A DNA stretch of 56,997 nt from an uncultured Bacteroidales bacterium (GTDB lineage: Bacteria; Bacteroidota; Bacteroidia; Bacteroidales; Bacteroidaceae), in assembly GCA_902798685.1 (NCBI GenBank), contig CADBXO010000011.1, positions 1 through 56,997 on the forward strand, written 5' to 3'. The first letter of the stretch is position 1; the number at the start of each line of letters is the position of its first letter. Positions 40,977-47,074 of the stretch are shown here, in pieces. A program made the position numbers and the translations under genes. The notes beneath the pieces were generated by a model. That model had not been told where the DNA came from. It saw only the letters and a list, made by a program, of their open reading frames with translations, and searched no databases.

Positions 40977-42119
40977 TCAGAGGCGAGACTTGAAGTCGGC
41001 GTAGGAGAAGGATTTTATGAGGGTGTAGTTAGAGCCCTGCTTGAGGTAGATTGACGGCAAGGGCATACCGTTAAAGGTGTTGTTCTTGACCATGGAATAG
41101 ATGGCCATATCCTCGAATATGAGGGTCTGGCCTTCTTTTAACGGGGTATCAAACGAGTAGTCCCCTATTATATCGCCCGATAAGCAGGTCGGGCCGCCAA
41201 GACGGTAAGTGTATGCTTTCTCGCCGGGCTGGCCGCTGTCACGAAGTGGCGGACGGTACGGCATCTCAAGCACATCGGGCATATGGCATGCGGCCGATGT
41301 ATCCAGGATTGCTATGTCCATTGCACCCTCATGGTGCTGCACCTCAAGAACCTTGGTATGCAGATAACCGGCATTGAGGGCGATTGCCTCACCCGGCTCA
41401 AGATAGACCGTAAGGCCGTATCCTTTAGTCATACGCTCGATGCAACGCTCCAGACGCGGAATATCGTAATCAGAGCGGGTAATGTGATGACCGCCGCCAA
41501 AGTTCACCCACTTCATCTGCGGGAGCCACTCACGGAACTGCTTCTCAAAGGCGTTCAGGGTAGTCTCCAGGTCATCGGAGTTCTGCTCGCAAAGGGTATG
41601 GAAATGCAGTCCGTCCAGCAGACCTATGGTTTCGGCCGATGCCTTGCGGAACTCCTCCAGAGTAACCCCCAGCCTGCTGCCGGGAGCGCAGGGATCATAG
41701 ATTGCATGCTCTGCCGGCTGGGTAGAAATCTGCGGATTTATACGCAAGCCCACCTGCAGCCCGGCGTCCTTAGCGCGCTTGCCAAACAGCTCCAGCTGAC
41801 GGATGGAATTGAAAACTATATGGTCGCAGTTTTTCAGAATTTCAGAAAAATCCTCCTCGCGGAATGCGGGAGAGAAAACGTGGTTTTCACGGCCTGGCAT
41901 CTCCTCGTGGCACAAGCGGGCCTCAAAGAGGCCGCTTGCTGTTGCTCCACAGAGATATTTTGATATTAAAGGATAGACGGCATAGCAACTGAACGCCTTC
42001 TGAGCCAGCAGAATGCGGCAGCCGGTACGCTCCATCACCCCGTTCAGGATCTTGAGGTTGGCCTCAAGACGGTCACGGTCAATGACGTAGCACGGAGTAT
42101 TCAGCTGCTTTGAGTCCAT
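40977..42119 (-). CDS. nspC: Carboxynorspermidine decarboxylase
   Basis: 380 aa, PLP enzyme of the alanine-racemase fold. LAQKAFSCYAVYPLI holds the PLP Lys, WVNFGGGHHITRSDYD the glycine-rich phosphate loop, LEPGEAIALNAGYL the conserved arginine-site region and CLSGDIIGDYSF the CxxGD Cys. It decarboxylates carboxy(nor)spermidine to (nor)spermidine. Last gene of the polyamine operon, 9 bp after the dehydrogenase. Confidence 0.93.
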   Translation of the reverse strand: MDSKQLNTPCYVIDRDRLEANLKILNGVMERTGCRILLAQKAFSCYAVYPLISKYLCGATASGLFEARLCHEEMPGRENHVFSPAFREEDFSEILKNCDHIVFNSIRQLELFGKRAKDAGLQVGLRINPQISTQPAEHAIYDPCAPGSRLGVTLEEFRKASAETIGLLDGLHFHTLCEQNSDDLETTLNAFEKQFREWLPQMKWVNFGGGHHITRSDYDIPRLERCIERMTKGYGLTVYLEPGEAIALNAGYLHTKVLEVQHHEGAMDIAILDTSAACHMPDVLEMPYRPPLRDSGQPGEKAYTYRLGGPTCLSGDIIGDYSFDTPLKEGQTLIFEDMAIYSMVKNNTFNGMPLPSIYLKQGSNYTLIKSFSYADFKSRL

Positions 42120-42128
42120 CGCAAAAGA

Positions 42129-43394
42129 TTAGTCAACCATTACGGGGTTCTCATCCACAACCCAAGGCAGACCCCACTTGTTCAGGGCCTCCATGTAGGG
42201 ATCCGGATCAAACTCCTCAACGTTGAATACACCGGCACCCTTCCACTGGCCGGTCATAACCATCATTGTACCGATCATTGCGGGAACGCCGGTGGTGTAA
42301 GAGATAGCCTGTGAGCCAACCTCCTTGTAGCACTCCTGATGGTCGCATACGTTATAGATCTTGATGGCACGCTTCTTACCGTCCTTGATACCGGTATAGA
42401 TGCAGCCGATGTTTGTCTTACCTACTGTGCGCGGGCCCAGCGATGCGGGATCGGGCAGCAGAGCCTTGAGGAACTGGATGGGAACAATCTCCTTGCCCTC
42501 AAACATAACGGGATCGGTGCGCAGCATGCCTACGTTCTCAAGACACTTCATGTGGGTCAGGTAACTCTGGCCGAATGTCATGAAGAAACGGATGCGCTTT
42601 ACGCCCGGAATGTTCTTGGCGAGAGACTCAATCTCCTCATGATGAAGCAGATACATATCCTTCATGCCCACCTGCTCAAAGTTGTACTCGCGCTTTATCT
42701 CCATGGGCTTGGTCTCAACCCAGTGGCCGTTCTCCCAATATGAACCGTTGGCCGATACCTCACGCAGGTTAATCTCGGGGTTGAAGTTGGTTGCAAAGGG
42801 ATAACCGTGGTCGCCGCCGTTGCAGTCCAGGATATCGATAGTGTCTATCTGATCAAAATAGTGCTTGAGAGCATATGCTGAGAATACGCTGGTTACGCCC
42901 GGATCAAAACCGGTGCCCAGGATTGCGGTGATACCAGCATCCTTGAATTTCTTCTGATATGCCCACTGCCATGAGTAGTCAAAGTATGCGGTAAAGCCCA
43001 GCTCCTTGCAGCGCTTCTCATAGATGGCGCGCCACTTGGGATCCTCGGTATCCTCGGGCTCGTAGTTGGCAGAGTCAACGTAATGTACGCCGCATGCAAG
43101 GCAGGCGTCCATGATGGTCAGATCCTGATACGGCAGAGCCAGGTTGAGCACTACATCGGGCTTGACGCTCTTGATGAGAGCAATCAGTTCATCCACGCTG
43201 TCAGCGTTAACCTTAGCGGTCGTAATCTTGGAACGGCTCTTACCCTCGGCCTCAATCTTCTTCTTAAGGTCGTCACACTTGCTAACCGTACGGCTTGCAA
43301 TGCAAATCTCGTCAAAAACTGCGTCGTTCTGGGCGCACTTCTGAATCGCAACCTGGGCTACGCCACCGCAGCCAATAACCAATACCTTTCCCAT
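42129..43394 (-). CDS. Carboxynorspermidine dehydrogenase (Lys1-type)
   Basis: 421 aa. N-terminal Rossmann GKVLVIGCGGVAQVAIQKCA; NLALPYQDLTIMDACLACGVHYVDSANYEPED is typical of saccharopine-dehydrogenase-like enzymes; EFDPDPYMEALNKWGLPW closes the protein. It condenses aspartate semialdehyde with putrescine (or agmatine in variant routes) and reduces the imine with NADPH to the carboxy-polyamine. Directly upstream of nspC and 1 bp after the ureohydrolase. Confidence 0.93.
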   Translation of the reverse strand: MGKVLVIGCGGVAQVAIQKCAQNDAVFDEICIASRTVSKCDDLKKKIEAEGKSRSKITTAKVNADSVDELIALIKSVKPDVVLNLALPYQDLTIMDACLACGVHYVDSANYEPEDTEDPKWRAIYEKRCKELGFTAYFDYSWQWAYQKKFKDAGITAILGTGFDPGVTSVFSAYALKHYFDQIDTIDILDCNGGDHGYPFATNFNPEINLREVSANGSYWENGHWVETKPMEIKREYNFEQVGMKDMYLLHHEEIESLAKNIPGVKRIRFFMTFGQSYLTHMKCLENVGMLRTDPVMFEGKEIVPIQFLKALLPDPASLGPRTVGKTNIGCIYTGIKDGKKRAIKIYNVCDHQECYKEVGSQAISYTTGVPAMIGTMMVMTGQWKGAGVFNVEEFDPDPYMEALNKWGLPWVVDENPVMVD

Positions 43395-43395
43395 T

Positions 43396-44250
43396 TTATT
43401 TAATGCTTAATAATAATTCTCTGATAATCTTGCAGGCCGCAGCGGTAGAGGCTCCGGTCTGGTCATAAGGCGGGCAGAGTTCATTGACATCAAGGCCCAC
43501 AATGTTGCAGCCGTAGCAGACGGTCTTGAGTGCCTCAAACAGCTGCATGAAAGTAACACCGCCGTACTCAGGAGTACCTGTACCGGGGAATACTGACGGA
43601 TCCATCACATCCAGATCAATGGTAAAGTAGACCGGTGTAGAACCCAATCCCTTAACAACCTCTGCAAGTCCGTCAAAACTGAACGGATGCAGGTCAGTAT
43701 GACCCTCACGGGCCCACTGCCACTCGGCACGTTCGCCTGAGCGGATTCCGAACTGGTGGATTCGGCCGTCACCAATCAGATCATGGCAGCGACGCAGAAC
43801 GCATGCATGTGAGAGTTTCACATCCAGGTAGTCGTCACGCAGGTCTGTGTGGGCGTCAAAATGTATGATATGTACATCAGGATACTTCTTGAAAACCTCG
43901 CGGAAGGCACCAAGGGTTACCAGATGCTCACCTCCTATCATGAAGGGAATCTTGCCGTCGGCAAGAATGGTAGCGGTACGCTCCGAAATCTGGTCAAGCG
44001 CCTTCTCGGCACTGCCTATGCAGAGTTCAATGTCACCGCTGTCAAATACGCTGATGTCCTCCAGGTCACGGTCCTGCCAGGGGCTGTAGGTCTCCAGACC
44101 GAAAGACTCGCTGCGAATGGCATGAGGAGCGAATCTTGTGCCCGGACGGAATGACGTGGTGGAGTCAAACGGTGCCCCGAACAATACTATGCGGGCATCC
44201 TTGTAATCGGCATCACAACCTATGAATGTCTCTACGTTTCTGTTCAGCAT
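43396..44250 (-). CDS. speB: Agmatinase-like ureohydrolase
   Basis: 284 aa from MLNRNVETFIGCDADY; longer readings overlap speE. Manganese ligands: GGEHLVT (His), HIIHFDAHTDLRDD (DAHxD) and TIDLDVMDPS (DxD). It hydrolyses agmatine to putrescine and urea, or aminopropylagmatine to spermidine in the alternative order. The start shares one base with the SpeE stop (TGATG), indicating translational coupling. Confidence 0.9.
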   Translation of the reverse strand: MLNRNVETFIGCDADYKDARIVLFGAPFDSTTSFRPGTRFAPHAIRSESFGLETYSPWQDRDLEDISVFDSGDIELCIGSAEKALDQISERTATILADGKIPFMIGGEHLVTLGAFREVFKKYPDVHIIHFDAHTDLRDDYLDVKLSHACVLRRCHDLIGDGRIHQFGIRSGERAEWQWAREGHTDLHPFSFDGLAEVVKGLGSTPVYFTIDLDVMDPSVFPGTGTPEYGGVTFMQLFEALKTVCYGCNIVGLDVNELCPPYDQTGASTAAACKIIRELLLSIK

Positions 44251-45113
44251 CAGTCCTTTATCTTTTCCACATCGGCAAGCATGCGCTCCACGTATGCGGG
44301 CAAAGCAAAGCAGCCTTTGTGAAGGTTTGTAGTGTAATAGTTGGTCTTGATTCCCAGCTGGTTCCATGCATCGGCATCCAGGTCAAGCACCGGACGGTAC
44401 TTCTTTGATGCAAAACCAAAGAGCCAGTAACCTGAAGGGTATGTAGGAATATGGGCCTGATATACGCGGCTTATGGGGAATCGGTTCACAATACGCATGT
44501 GAGCCTTCTGGGTCTCCAGGCGGTCCTCCTCATAGAAGGGGCTCTGGTGCTGGTTCACCATGATGCCATCGGCCTTGAGTGCCTTATAGCAGCTGCCGTA
44601 GAACTCACGGGTGAGCAGACTCTCACCAGGACCGTAGAATCCGGCCGAGTCAACCACAATCACGTCATACTCATTCTCGATATGGCGGATGTAGCGCAGG
44701 GCATTCTCAGTATAGATGGTAACGCGGGGATCGTCAAGTGACTCTGCCATCTCGGGGAAATACTCACGGCAGGCCTGAACAACGCCCTCGTTTATCTCAA
44801 TCAGGTCAATCTGTTGGATGGACTTGTACTTGAGCAGCTCACGGACCACGCCTCCGTCACCTGATCCGAACACCAGAATCTTCTGGGCTGCGGGATGGAC
44901 GGCCATGGGCACGTGTGAAAGCATCTCATCATAGATGAATTCGTCTCTCTGGGTGAAGATTATATAACCGTCAACAGCCAGGAAACGACCGAACTCGGGT
45001 GACTCAAAGATATCTACCCTACCCAAATCATTCTCAGCGGTGTAGAGGTGCTTGTCGACCTTTACTGAGAACTTTACATTAGGAGTATGTAACTCGGTAA
45101 ACCAGAATTCCAT
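44250..45113 (-). CDS. speE: SpeE-like spermidine synthase homolog with altered active site
   Basis: 287 aa. Family features: GRFLAVDGYIIFTQRDEFIYDEM, FGSGDGGVVRELLK (SAM-type loop), LIEINEGVV, IPTYPSGYW. But the catalytic loop, DST(D/E)P in normal spermidine synthases, reads DSAGFYGPGESLL at residues 155-167, so the second Asp is Gly. The substrate or activity may differ. No SpeD (decarboxylated-SAM source) is in the window. Coupled to the ureohydrolase by TGATG and 13 bp downstream of arginine decarboxylase. Confidence 0.85.
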   Translation of the reverse strand: MEFWFTELHTPNVKFSVKVDKHLYTAENDLGRVDIFESPEFGRFLAVDGYIIFTQRDEFIYDEMLSHVPMAVHPAAQKILVFGSGDGGVVRELLKYKSIQQIDLIEINEGVVQACREYFPEMAESLDDPRVTIYTENALRYIRHIENEYDVIVVDSAGFYGPGESLLTREFYGSCYKALKADGIMVNQHQSPFYEEDRLETQKAHMRIVNRFPISRVYQAHIPTYPSGYWLFGFASKKYRPVLDLDADAWNQLGIKTNYYTTNLHKGCFALPAYVERMLADVEKIKD

Positions 45114-45126
45114 TTGGCAAACAATA

Positions 45127-46584
45127 TCAATATGTTGTACTTTCCTTAATCACATTCAGACGCTCTACCCTCTCATCCTCGGGACCGGTCAGCTGACAGC
45201 CCTTCTCCTTGGCGTAGAGTATGTAGTCGATGATTTCCTGCGTGATGCGCTCACCCGGGGCCAGGATAGGAATTCCGGGAGGATAGCACATTACGAATTC
45301 CGTACATATACGTCCGTTGGTCTCACGGATGGGAATCATCTCCTCCTTGGGAGCATAGAAAGCCTCCTGCGGAGTCATAACCACTGACGGGTTGATATAC
45401 TCATGGTCGAACAGACCGGAACGGTCGCGGCTGTAACGGCGCTTAACGTCAACCAGGGCGCTCACCAGACGCTCGACCTCACGCATACGGTCACCTATGG
45501 ATATGTATGCCAGTACGTTACCCATGTCACCAAGTTCCAGCTGGATGTCATACTCGTCACGCAGCAGGTCATAAACCTCAATGCCGGCAAGGCCGATATC
45601 CAGTGTGTAGACGGTCAGTTTGGTGGGATCAAAATCATATACGCTGTCACCGTTTATCAGCTCTTTGCCGTAAGCGTAGTAGCCGCCAATCTTGTTGATC
45701 TCGGTGCGTGCGTAATTTGCAATACGCATCACCTCGGCGAACAGCTCCTTGCCACGCAGGGCAAGGTTACGGCGTGAAATATCCAGACTTGAAATCAGCA
45801 GGTACGATGCGCTTGTGGTCTGAGTGAGGTTGATCACCTGACGTACATAACCGGCGCTGACATCGGGACCTGTAAGCAGGAATGAACTCTGAGTAAGGCT
45901 GCCGCCGGACTTATGCATTGAGACCGATGCCATATCGGCCCCCGCAGCCATAGCGGTTATAGGCATGTCCTCGCCAAAGTAGAAGTGTGTTCCGTGAGCC
46001 TCGTCCACCAGCACCATCATTCCGTGCTCGTGAGCCAGCTCCACAATCTTCTTCAGGTTGGAGCAGATTCCGTAGTATGTAGGGTTGTTCACCAGGATGG
46101 CCTTTGCCTCGGGGTTCTCCTCGATGGCGCGCTCCACCTGTGATATCTTCATGCCAAGGGCTATACCCAGACGGCTGTCTGTATCGGGATTTACATAAAT
46201 GGGAGTTGCGCCGTTCACAACCAGGGCGTTGATGACGCTACGGTGCACGTTACGCGGCAGGATGATCTTCTCACCGCTCTTGCATGCGGTAAGCACCATA
46301 GTCTGTACGGCCGATGTCGTACCACCCACCATCAGGAATGCGTGTGCGGCGCCGAATGCCTCGGCGGCCAGTTCTTCGGCCTCTTTGATTACTGAAATGG
46401 GGTGACAGAGATTGTCCAGGGGTTTCATTGAGTTGACATCCAACTCAACGCACTGCTTTCCCAGCAGAGCAACGAGCTCGGGGTTGCCCCTGCCTCTTTT
46501 GTGACCAGGTACATCGAAGGGTACCACTCTGTTCCTGCGGAACTCCTGCAGAGCTTCATAAACGGGAGCTTTTCGCTGATCCAT
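45127..46584 (-). CDS. speA: Arginine decarboxylase (AAT-fold)
   Basis: 485 aa Orn/Lys/Arg decarboxylase of fold type I. PFDVPGHKRGRG near the N-terminus, LVDEAHGTHFYF (PLP Asp), ASVSMHKSGGSLTQSS (Schiff-base Lys) and the C-terminal CYPPGIPILAPGERI. It makes agmatine from arginine and opens the polyamine operon. The leader of about 320 nt upstream has an intrinsic terminator (46650-46690), so expression is probably attenuated. Confidence 0.9.
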   Translation of the reverse strand: MDQRKAPVYEALQEFRRNRVVPFDVPGHKRGRGNPELVALLGKQCVELDVNSMKPLDNLCHPISVIKEAEELAAEAFGAAHAFLMVGGTTSAVQTMVLTACKSGEKIILPRNVHRSVINALVVNGATPIYVNPDTDSRLGIALGMKISQVERAIEENPEAKAILVNNPTYYGICSNLKKIVELAHEHGMMVLVDEAHGTHFYFGEDMPITAMAAGADMASVSMHKSGGSLTQSSFLLTGPDVSAGYVRQVINLTQTTSASYLLISSLDISRRNLALRGKELFAEVMRIANYARTEINKIGGYYAYGKELINGDSVYDFDPTKLTVYTLDIGLAGIEVYDLLRDEYDIQLELGDMGNVLAYISIGDRMREVERLVSALVDVKRRYSRDRSGLFDHEYINPSVVMTPQEAFYAPKEEMIPIRETNGRICTEFVMCYPPGIPILAPGERITQEIIDYILYAKEKGCQLTGPEDERVERLNVIKESTTY

Positions 46585-46902
46585 CTACTTCAAAAACGTT
46601 TAAAAGTTCAACCATCCAGCCTTTTTTCCGGCCCTCAGCGTGAGGGGACAAAAAAAAGACATAAACAATAAAACCTCTCTTGTTTACGTCTTCGGTACTT
46701 TAGGCAGTAATGCCTTTTGTACTTTCAAATCAGAGTCTATATAGTAAACAAATACTTTTACTACTCTTCTTATTGACCGTTTTCCAAGTCGGGCGGTTAT
46801 AAAGTAACCAACTTTAAAAAAGGGGTACGTTGCCGTACACAATGTGCGTTATGCGCACAACTCAATAATAGGAAAACTCTGATTCAATCCATTCTGCTTT
46901 CC
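46585..46902 (-). promoter_or_regulatory. Structured 5' leader of the polyamine operon (candidate attenuator/riboswitch)
   Basis: From the predicted start (about 46902) to the speA ATG (46584) the transcript can form: TGTGCG/CGCACA hairpin (46859-46843), GTACG-GCAA-CGTAC GNRA-type hairpin (46838-46825), AAGT-GGTTA/TAACC-ACTT nested hairpin (about 46815-46787), GTAC-GGCA-TGCC-GTAC nested hairpin (46722-46695), the terminator (46690-46650) and CCCTCA/TGAGGG just after it. TTGTTTAC (46751-46744) is perfectly complementary to GTAAACAA (46687-46680) in the terminator 5' arm, giving an antiterminator; GTAAA (46761-46757) can in turn pair with TTTAC (46748-46744). Confidence 0.6.
46650..46690 (-). 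terminator. Intrinsic terminator inside the polyamine leader
   Basis: GACGTAAACAA (46690-46680) pairs with TTGTTTATGTC (46668-46658), 11 bp with one G-U, 11-nt loop, followed by eight U (46657-46650). It sits 66 nt before the speA start codon. Confidence 0.8.
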
Positions 46903-46908
46903 TGACCG

Positions 46909-46916
46909 CAAAGTTA
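46909..46916 (-). promoter_or_regulatory. -7 box for the polyamine operon
   Basis: TAACTTTG on the minus strand, fits TAnnTTTG. Confidence 0.6.
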
Positions 46917-46993: not shown

Positions 46994-47068
46994 CGGGATG
47001 TAGTTCAGTCCGGTTAGAATGCCTGGTTTGGGACCAGGTGGTCGAAGGTTCGAATCCTTTCATCCCGA
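46994..47068 (+). tRNA. tRNA-Pro (TGG)
   Basis: Acceptor CGGGATG/CATCCCG, anticodon arm CCTGG-TTTGGGA-CCAGG with anticodon TGG, T-arm AAGGTTCGAATCCTT. CCA is not encoded (ACA follows). Confidence 0.97.
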
Positions 47069-47074
47069 CAAAAA

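Follow-up and report, generated by a model that had tools for sequence, protein, structure and literature searches.

A conserved leader RNA upstream of polyamine genes in Bacillota and some Bacteroidales is a candidate spermidine-type riboswitch

A 56,997-nucleotide (nt) stretch of DNA from an uncultured Bacteroidales bacterium (contig CADBXO010000011.1; the whole stretch is called the window below) carries on its minus strand a polyamine operon headed by speA and preceded by a long leader. By comparing this leader with those of fetched relative loci (labeled L plus a number), we found a conserved structured RNA directly before genes for polyamine synthesis or import. Its parts are a 5′ hairpin, P0, that is partly pseudoknotted with a helix P1, followed by P3, P4, P5, and P6; many copies in the Bacillota add P1b, P7, and a P2 domain that corresponds to Rfam entry RF02440. 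The 3′ strand of the Bacillota P5/P7 (ACUUG and its neighbors) can pair either internally or, with covariation, with the 5′ arm of a terminator. From these comparisons the RNA is probably a cis-acting switch, most likely a polyamine riboswitch of the spermidine type that would terminate transcription when polyamine is plentiful, and it has no full Rfam model. When ligand is scarce, the ACUUG strand would pair with the terminator arm as an antiterminator, and the genes would be on; when ligand is bound, the strand would be held in P5/P7, the arm would be free, the terminator would form, and the genes would be off. To judge from the genes alone, the ligand would be spermidine or a close polyamine.

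The leader in the window is real and goes beyond chance. Folded as a 321-nt RNA it reaches −94.7 kcal/mol, versus −69.9 ± 4.8 kcal/mol for 100 shuffled sequences (z = −5.1; 0 of 100 as good). Its Bacteroidota-type −7 promoter box, TAACTTTG, reads at 46916-46909, with a probable start about 4 to 6 nt downstream; the computations assumed a start at 46905 from the position of the box. The form TAnnTTTG, which we take to be the Bacteroidota promoter consensus, is present in 14 of the 15 aligned leaders of the window's genus, and the 15th (L002) ends before the site. At the other end, an intrinsic terminator (46690-46650) consists of an 11-bp stem with arms GACGTAAACAA (46690-46680) and TTGTTTATGTC (46668-46658) and a run of eight T's (46657-46650) that ends about 65 nt upstream of the speA ATG (46584). 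The stem is invariant in all 15 genus leaders, and in simulated folding of the growing transcript the terminator attains a probability of 0.99 when the 3′ end is at 46652. The box, the terminator, and a GNRA-type hairpin between them had already been noted in the initial annotation, and all three were found as described. In the full-length leader (to 46585), a long hairpin with 46585-46650 is predicted to displace the terminator (terminator probability, 0.01).

Between promoter and terminator, the RNA is larger than the leader switch first proposed and, by its predicted helices, partly pseudoknotted. P0 (46903-46870) is an 8-bp hairpin formed by AGGAAAGC (46903-46896) and GTTTTCCT (46877-46870). 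Its loop contains most of the P1 5′ strand, AATCAGAGT (46884-46876), so P0 and P1 would form a pseudoknot or exclude each other. The P1 5′ strand makes 9 bp with ACTCTGATT (46736-46728) and is included in a longer predicted helix; the AGACTCT of the 3′ strand is unchanged in all 29 aligned Bacillota. The conserved core, from P3 through the end of AGACTCT, spans 46868-46732. Within it, P3 pairs TTATTGA (46868-46862) with TCAATAA (46776-46770) and is likewise invariant in all 29 Bacillota. At the place of P4, the predicted fold has two local hairpins (46858-46825), GTGCG..CGCAC and the GNRA-type hairpin GTACG-GCAA-CGTAC, the latter read directly at 46838-46825 and showing compensatory changes in L009, L011, and L013. 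The GNRA tetraloop itself was rejected as a conserved feature, as other loops stand there in L004, L009, L011, and L013. The P5 5′ strand AAGTT (46814-46810) and the P6 hairpin GGTTACTTTATAACC (46809-46795) together occupy 46814-46795 and are near-invariant between phyla, with L010 lacking them. The alignments place the P5 3′ strand inside CCGACTTG, which with the conserved stretch AAAACGGTCAATAAGAAGAGTAGTAAAAGT covers 46792-46754. P8 (46764-46741) is an 8-bp hairpin of GTAGTAAA and TTTACTAT (46764-46757 with 46748-46741). P0, P1, the core, and the terminator stem show almost no change among the 15 genus leaders; L006, L008, and L013 carry an additional P6-like sequence.

A scan for SpeA in genome contigs gave 370 relatives, and the best 80 of the 370, all carrying speA by construction, were examined. 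Of these 80, 51 have the leader core, recognized either by pattern or by a covariance model, R1; they belong to Bacteroidales and Clostridia, and L023 (E about 2e-4) and L052 (E about 1e-4) are weak matches. R1 was built from 16 leaders, none of them from the window's genus, and it matches the window at 46868-46732 with 87.2 bits (E = 8.6e-15); the next match in the 56,997 bases has an E value of 0.22. Run without the 16 seeds, L001 to L014, and L019, R1 also recovers 20 of 49 further loci. The window has these features of the R1 class: P3, P5 (AAGTT/ACTT), P6, CAATAA..GAGTAGTAAAAGT, AGACTCT, the 8-bp P0 with its loop pairing to the 3′ AGACTCT strand (P1, 9 bp), and the operon speA-speE-speB-carboxynorspermidine synthase-like-nspC directly downstream. 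The family to which the leader belongs, as a divergent copy, is a conserved RNA of about 170 to 270 nt found in Clostridia, Bacilli, and, sporadically, Bacteroidales.

Homologous leaders were found to covary. Covariation was assessed in alignment A4, which contains 29 Bacillota leaders and 69 base pairs; Bacteroidales rows were dropped because MAFFT had misaligned their 5′ part in the preceding alignment, A3. In A4, 92.7% of cells are paired, versus 31 to 50% when partners are slid as a control, and 22 of the 69 pairs have changed on both sides, versus 10.0 ± 1.7 in shuffles (0 of 500 as high), a control that kinship among the sequences can inflate. P1b, the P2 helices, and P2d are well supported by covariation, and P0 and P7 fairly so. 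P0 is built from differing letters in different groups: the window has AGGAAAGC/GTTTTCCT, Bacilli have TTGGAAAG/CTTTCCAA, L062 has GTATGGAA/TTCCATGC, and L026 has ATTGGATA/TATCCAGT. P0-like hairpins recur in several loci of Lachnospirales, Bacilli, and Bacteroidales, although the search for them selected for complementarity and is biased as a test. The start points of A3 and A4 were chosen by hand from two P0 searches, both of which picked wrong hairpins in some loci. The equivalent of P8 is complete in 23 of the 29 Bacillota, and because the 3′ strand of P8 is shared with P1b, the two helices would be mutually exclusive there. The window's genus has neither P1b nor the P2 domain.

Three structural observations count against the proposed riboswitch. 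P3 never varies in A4 and P4, P5, and P6 hardly do, so covariation leaves these helices untested. P1, the pseudoknot, is paired in 59.5% of A4 cells and P0 in 77.3%, which misalignment explains in part at most. And in the window's own genus, the L010 leader (2187-2500, before speA) lacks the P5 5′ strand and all of P6, while the rest is kept.

The case for a transcriptional switch comes mainly from the Bacillota, in which the terminator 5′ arm resembles the 5′ strand of P5/P7. In L061, CTAACTTGT can pair with ACAGGTTAG; in L224, TGGTACAC, immediately 5′ of ACTTG, pairs with GTGTACCA. We compared the pairing of each ACUUG piece with its own terminator arm and with arms swapped from other loci, using 99 loci without duplicates, 89 of them with a terminator, and one representative for each of 34 distinct segments. 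The mean energy with the own arm was −11.0 kcal/mol, versus −8.64 ± 0.36 kcal/mol for swapped arms (0 of 5,000), and the own arm had a mean rank of 9.6 versus 16.5 expected. What covariation supports, in the Bacillota, is a predicted antiterminator between the ACUUG strand and CAAGU-like bases in the terminator arm, and not the helix proposed in the initial annotation. The initial annotation had seen in the window the layout of a riboswitch or attenuator; homologue covariation, this covarying competition between terminator and antiterminator in Bacillota, and the set of polyamine genes downstream all support that view.

Several results weigh against extending this switch to every copy. In a first version of the test (95 of 120 records, 47 distinct pairs), the observed pairing, −7.41 kcal/mol, exceeded that with shuffled arms (−4.62 ± 0.26 kcal/mol), but swapped arms did nearly as well (19 of 300). 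The two tests differ in the choice of arm and segment, the refined one having a better terminator finder and longer segments, and some arms were misassigned in both (for example, that of L020). The ACUUG:arm duplex is poor in Bacteroidales (L001, L010, L016, L025, and L034), where the own arm ranks 21 to 29 (0 being the best of 34), and also in L020 (rank 24) and L138 (rank 20). In 10 of the 99 loci (L018, L019, L026, L027, L031, L033, L036, L039, and L051, all Bacteroidales, and L217), the script finds no terminator. Control may differ in the Bacteroidales leaders of this kind; in several, translation could be the target instead, through a short hairpin close to the start codon.

In the window, the initial annotation had proposed as antiterminator the strand TTGTTTAC (46751-46744), which overlaps P8. 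The pairing itself holds, with 8 of 8 bp to GTAAACAA (46687-46680) in the terminator arm, as does the claim that GTAAA (46761-46757) partly sequesters the strand: GTAAA is part of the P8 hairpin, which in growing-transcript folding keeps TTGTTTAC paired at a probability of about 0.96. As an antiterminator, the strand is plausible in the genus but not clearly beyond chance. An 8-bp Watson-Crick match between arm and leader arises in 56 of 2,000 shuffles (290 of 2,000 if G-U pairs are allowed), and an equal duplex energy in 90 of 500. The growing transcript forms almost none of the TTGTTTAC:GTAAACAA helix at equilibrium; forcing it before the terminator 3′ arm is made costs about 5 to 6 kcal/mol, with P1 replaced by P0, and forcing it against the complete terminator costs about 15 kcal/mol. 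The Bacteroidales rows keep CCGACTTG and CAAGA(A)GG, so that CUUG:CAAG pairing is possible, perhaps with CC:GG; in the window, CAAG at 46682-46679 is the counterpart of the family's CAAGU. The antiterminator of the window's genus is possibly this weak CUUG:CAAG pairing or UUGUUUAC:GUAAACAA, which would mean a platform that is weak or rewired there.

A competition between terminator and antiterminator is independent of what stabilizes the other state, and the same switch could be set by a regulatory protein that binds the leader and signals polyamine or arginine status. We regard such a protein-responsive attenuator as unlikely, since the large core, part of it pseudoknotted, has many invariant letters and is kept in Bacilli, Clostridia, and Bacteroidales. 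A ribosome-sensed upstream open reading frame (ORF) is another way to control a terminator. The speF leader is said to contain a leader peptide. Before ornithine decarboxylase genes, an odc1 motif that includes an upstream ORF has been described (PMC8632094), and a speF leader has been reported (PMC6386406). In our set, however, no ATG reaches 80% conservation among the 29 aligned Bacillota leaders, conserved TTG and GTG codons sit in near-invariant RNA, and Shine-Dalgarno-like letters stand upstream of them in at most 1 of 29. A leader-peptide attenuator is therefore very improbable, and an upstream ORF was rejected for lack of a conserved start codon of that kind in these leaders.

What a riboswitch would sense can be judged from the genes that follow it. 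The fairest set comprises 56 copies found by the RNA pattern and confirmed by R1, excluding the genomes on which the samples were centered. All 56 precede a polyamine gene: carboxynorspermidine synthase in 26, speD in 19, speA in 9, and potA in 2 (three speD and one speA, in L220, L221, L233, and L235, were assigned by eye). Among all fetched loci, the 155 pattern matches, which include repeated places, precede speA in 73 cases, carboxynorspermidine synthase in 47, speD in 31, and none of these in 4. Collapsed to 92 distinct matches, the numbers are 43 for speA, 25 for speD, 20 for carboxynorspermidine synthase, 2 for potA, and 2 cut off; many of these loci were fetched through SpeA. The sequences of L093 and L095 stop before the downstream gene. 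Outside the window's genus, the 73 distinct matches are divided among speA (26), speD (25), carboxynorspermidine synthase (20), and no listed gene (2). In L227 and L234 the gene that follows the RNA is potA, whose product is the ATPase subunit of an importer for spermidine and putrescine (TIGR01187 and NF043075, both above cutoff), and the SpeD of L116 is an S-adenosylmethionine (SAM) decarboxylase (TIGR03331).

Because polyamines unite speA, speD, carboxynorspermidine synthase, and potA, a polyamine, most simply spermidine, is the expected ligand. The initial annotation had named a polyamine, agmatine, arginine, or a SAM-derived compound; the gene set supports the first, and arginine, agmatine, and SAM are less likely. 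If the switch instead sensed a precursor or another related signal (arginine, agmatine, putrescine, or decarboxylated SAM), this would suit the use of arginine by SpeA and the fact that, in the 92 distinct matches, speA comes first after the RNA more often than any other gene, albeit in a collection with many loci fetched through SpeA. No link to arginine, agmatine, or SAM is common to the speD, carboxynorspermidine synthase, and potA genes that follow 47 of the 56 copies, and we consider this alternative improbable, with putrescine as a possible ligand.

The RNA is sporadic in Bacteroidales and occurs in many Bacillota. The leader occurs in 2 of 247 genomes of a Bacteroidales sample, the window's included, and in a wide Bacteroidota sample the window's genome was the only one of 296. 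In the four samples that follow, pattern matches were counted only if confirmed by R1, because a backward-read control pattern also matched some genomes in each of them. In the order of the L062 genome, the pattern is present in 19 of 295 genomes; R1 confirms 15 and the center genome, and 3 fail. In the class of the L080 genome (taken as Bacilli), it is present in 33 of 398, and 26 of the 30 fetched were confirmed; in that of the L020 genome (taken as Clostridia), in 19 of 196, with 16 confirmed, center included. In the family of the L016 genome, 28 of 149 genomes match the pattern, and R1 confirms the center genome only. RF02440 matches 23 of 299 genomes of the L080 class and, among 14 named controls, Lactococcus lactis. 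Of 16 genomes, 10 have the RNA, one copy each, and the window's genome likewise has one. An origin in mobile elements was considered and rejected: a search with the L142 RNA gave no match in phage records and one in plasmid records, a Paenibacillus replicon.

We built a SpeA tree of 63 rows, the window plus 62 of the best 80 of 370 loci. All rows labeled Bacteroidota fall into one clade of 40 (100/100), which also contains L020, L047, L048, and L053, labeled Bacillota, and the unlabeled L017 and L022. L020, L047, and L048 carry the leader, are basal in this clade, and have SpeA about 88% identical to that of the window; the split of the other 37 rows is weak (85/26). The nearest branches outside the clade are Clostridia with the leader. 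Carriers are clustered: leader presence requires 4 changes on the tree, versus 21.0 for shuffled labels. Gene and leader probably moved together from Bacillota to Bacteroidota, a direction that depends on rooting the tree at its midpoint and on how the metagenome bins are labeled. Related speA genes without the leader are those of L017, L021, L022, L024, L028 to L030, L032, L040 to L046, L049, L050, L059, L066, and L076, all labeled Bacteroidales except the unlabeled L017 and L022; the L046 sequence extends just 30 bases beyond the 5′ end of the gene. Most of the leaderless loci on the tree group together, which looks like a loss of the RNA. Taken together, it is fairly likely that the leader belongs to a widespread, unrecognized class of spermidine riboswitch, with a 5′ pseudoknot and a size of about 170 to 270 nt, that governs both spermidine routes and sometimes import, that entered the Bacteroidales from the Bacillota with speA, and that in the window's genus has lost P2 and had its platform rewired.

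The operon behind the leader encodes enzymes of two routes to spermidine, one through decarboxylated SAM and the other through carboxyspermidine. All five genes are on the minus strand. speA (45127-46584) encodes an Orn/Lys/Arg decarboxylase (PF01276, 1.7e-70), speE (44250-45113) a spermidine synthase (TIGR00417 above cutoff), and speB (43396-44367) an agmatinase (TIGR01230 above cutoff). A carboxynorspermidine synthase-like gene (42129-43394) matches NF043000 with an E value of 7e-125, under the equivalog cutoff, and nspC (40977-42119) encodes a carboxynorspermidine decarboxylase (TIGR01047 above cutoff). The listed speB ORF overlaps speE at 44250-44367, and its true start is probably an internal Met before LNRNVETFIG. 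On the opposite strand, a tRNA-Pro(TGG) gene (46994-47069) lies between the operon promoter and a serine palmitoyltransferase gene.

One part of the RNA is already in Rfam. RF02440, "Streptococcus sRNA SpF59 (ldcC RNA)," corresponds to this RNA's P2 domain, directly 5′ of the R1 core, and scored above gathering in 7 of 10 and 12 of 14 relative loci scanned. The entry spans 54 positions, roughly one-fifth to one-third of the RNA's length, and is typed as a small RNA (sRNA) gene; the rest of the RNA and its link to a terminator lie outside the model, which the present RNA would extend. The window stays below the 37.2-bit gathering score of RF02440, the leader has no match at E ≤ 5, and the genus alignment has no such stretch. 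Other Rfam scans of the window's leader, at gathering and at lax thresholds, gave nothing useful; weak matches to mir-320 and CTV_rep_sig were taken as chance.

In L187, which looks streptococcal, RF02440 (39.8 bits) and R1 (43.6 bits) match directly before a speA-like gene, identified by eye. SP0916 is presumably the pneumococcal gene for SpeA/lysine decarboxylase. A pneumococcal RNA called F59, srn235, SN20, or Spd_sr49 lies between SP0915 and SP0916, at 869478-869804 (PMC12323649) or 869510-869591 (PMC3395615) of TIGR4, and its name and place suggest that it is Rfam's SpF59. The text available in these sources describes it as an sRNA, with no riboswitch or polyamine link. It is listed as such in PMC3395615, PMC12323649, and PMC4387999, with a lung pathogenesis profile for srn235/SN20, which would suit a terminated leader that acts chiefly in trans. 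Such a main role is most improbable: a polyamine gene follows in cis in 90 of the 92 distinct matches, all those with a readable downstream gene, and a disruption phenotype can stem from the operon, with which a trans role could coexist. A cis-acting polyamine switch could instead explain the conserved pneumococcal "sRNA" directly before SP0916.

In the open literature, we did not find this RNA described as a riboswitch; supplements, non-open papers, and the 2017 motif catalogue, which reportedly holds 224 motifs (Weinberg and others), were outside the scope. The initial annotation knew of no such aptamer for Bacteroidales polyamine operons; the RNA is not peculiar to Bacteroidales. Copies in Bacilli, Clostridia, and Bacteroidales offer natural replicates and clear mutants, and the shared gene set (speA, speD, carboxynorspermidine synthase, and potA) makes the question of the ligand directly testable.

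Leaders likewise regulate polyamine genes in the odc1 motif, which includes an upstream ORF (PMC8632094), and in speF. The closest functional parallel is a variant of the SAM-I riboswitch that responds to spermidine, an "off" switch found with speE, speB, speD, and ldcC, in which the antiterminator occludes the left shoulder of the terminator (PMC10853860). The off-switch logic is the same as that proposed here. The architecture differs: the variant adopts the four-stem SAM-I fold, unlike this leader, as Rfam scans found no SAM-I family match in the window, in its leader (E ≤ 5), or in that of L142 (E ≤ 2), the rare variant itself being outside the models used. Additional classes of polyamine riboswitch are expected still to be found (PMC10853860), and the RNA described here is a strong candidate for one of them.
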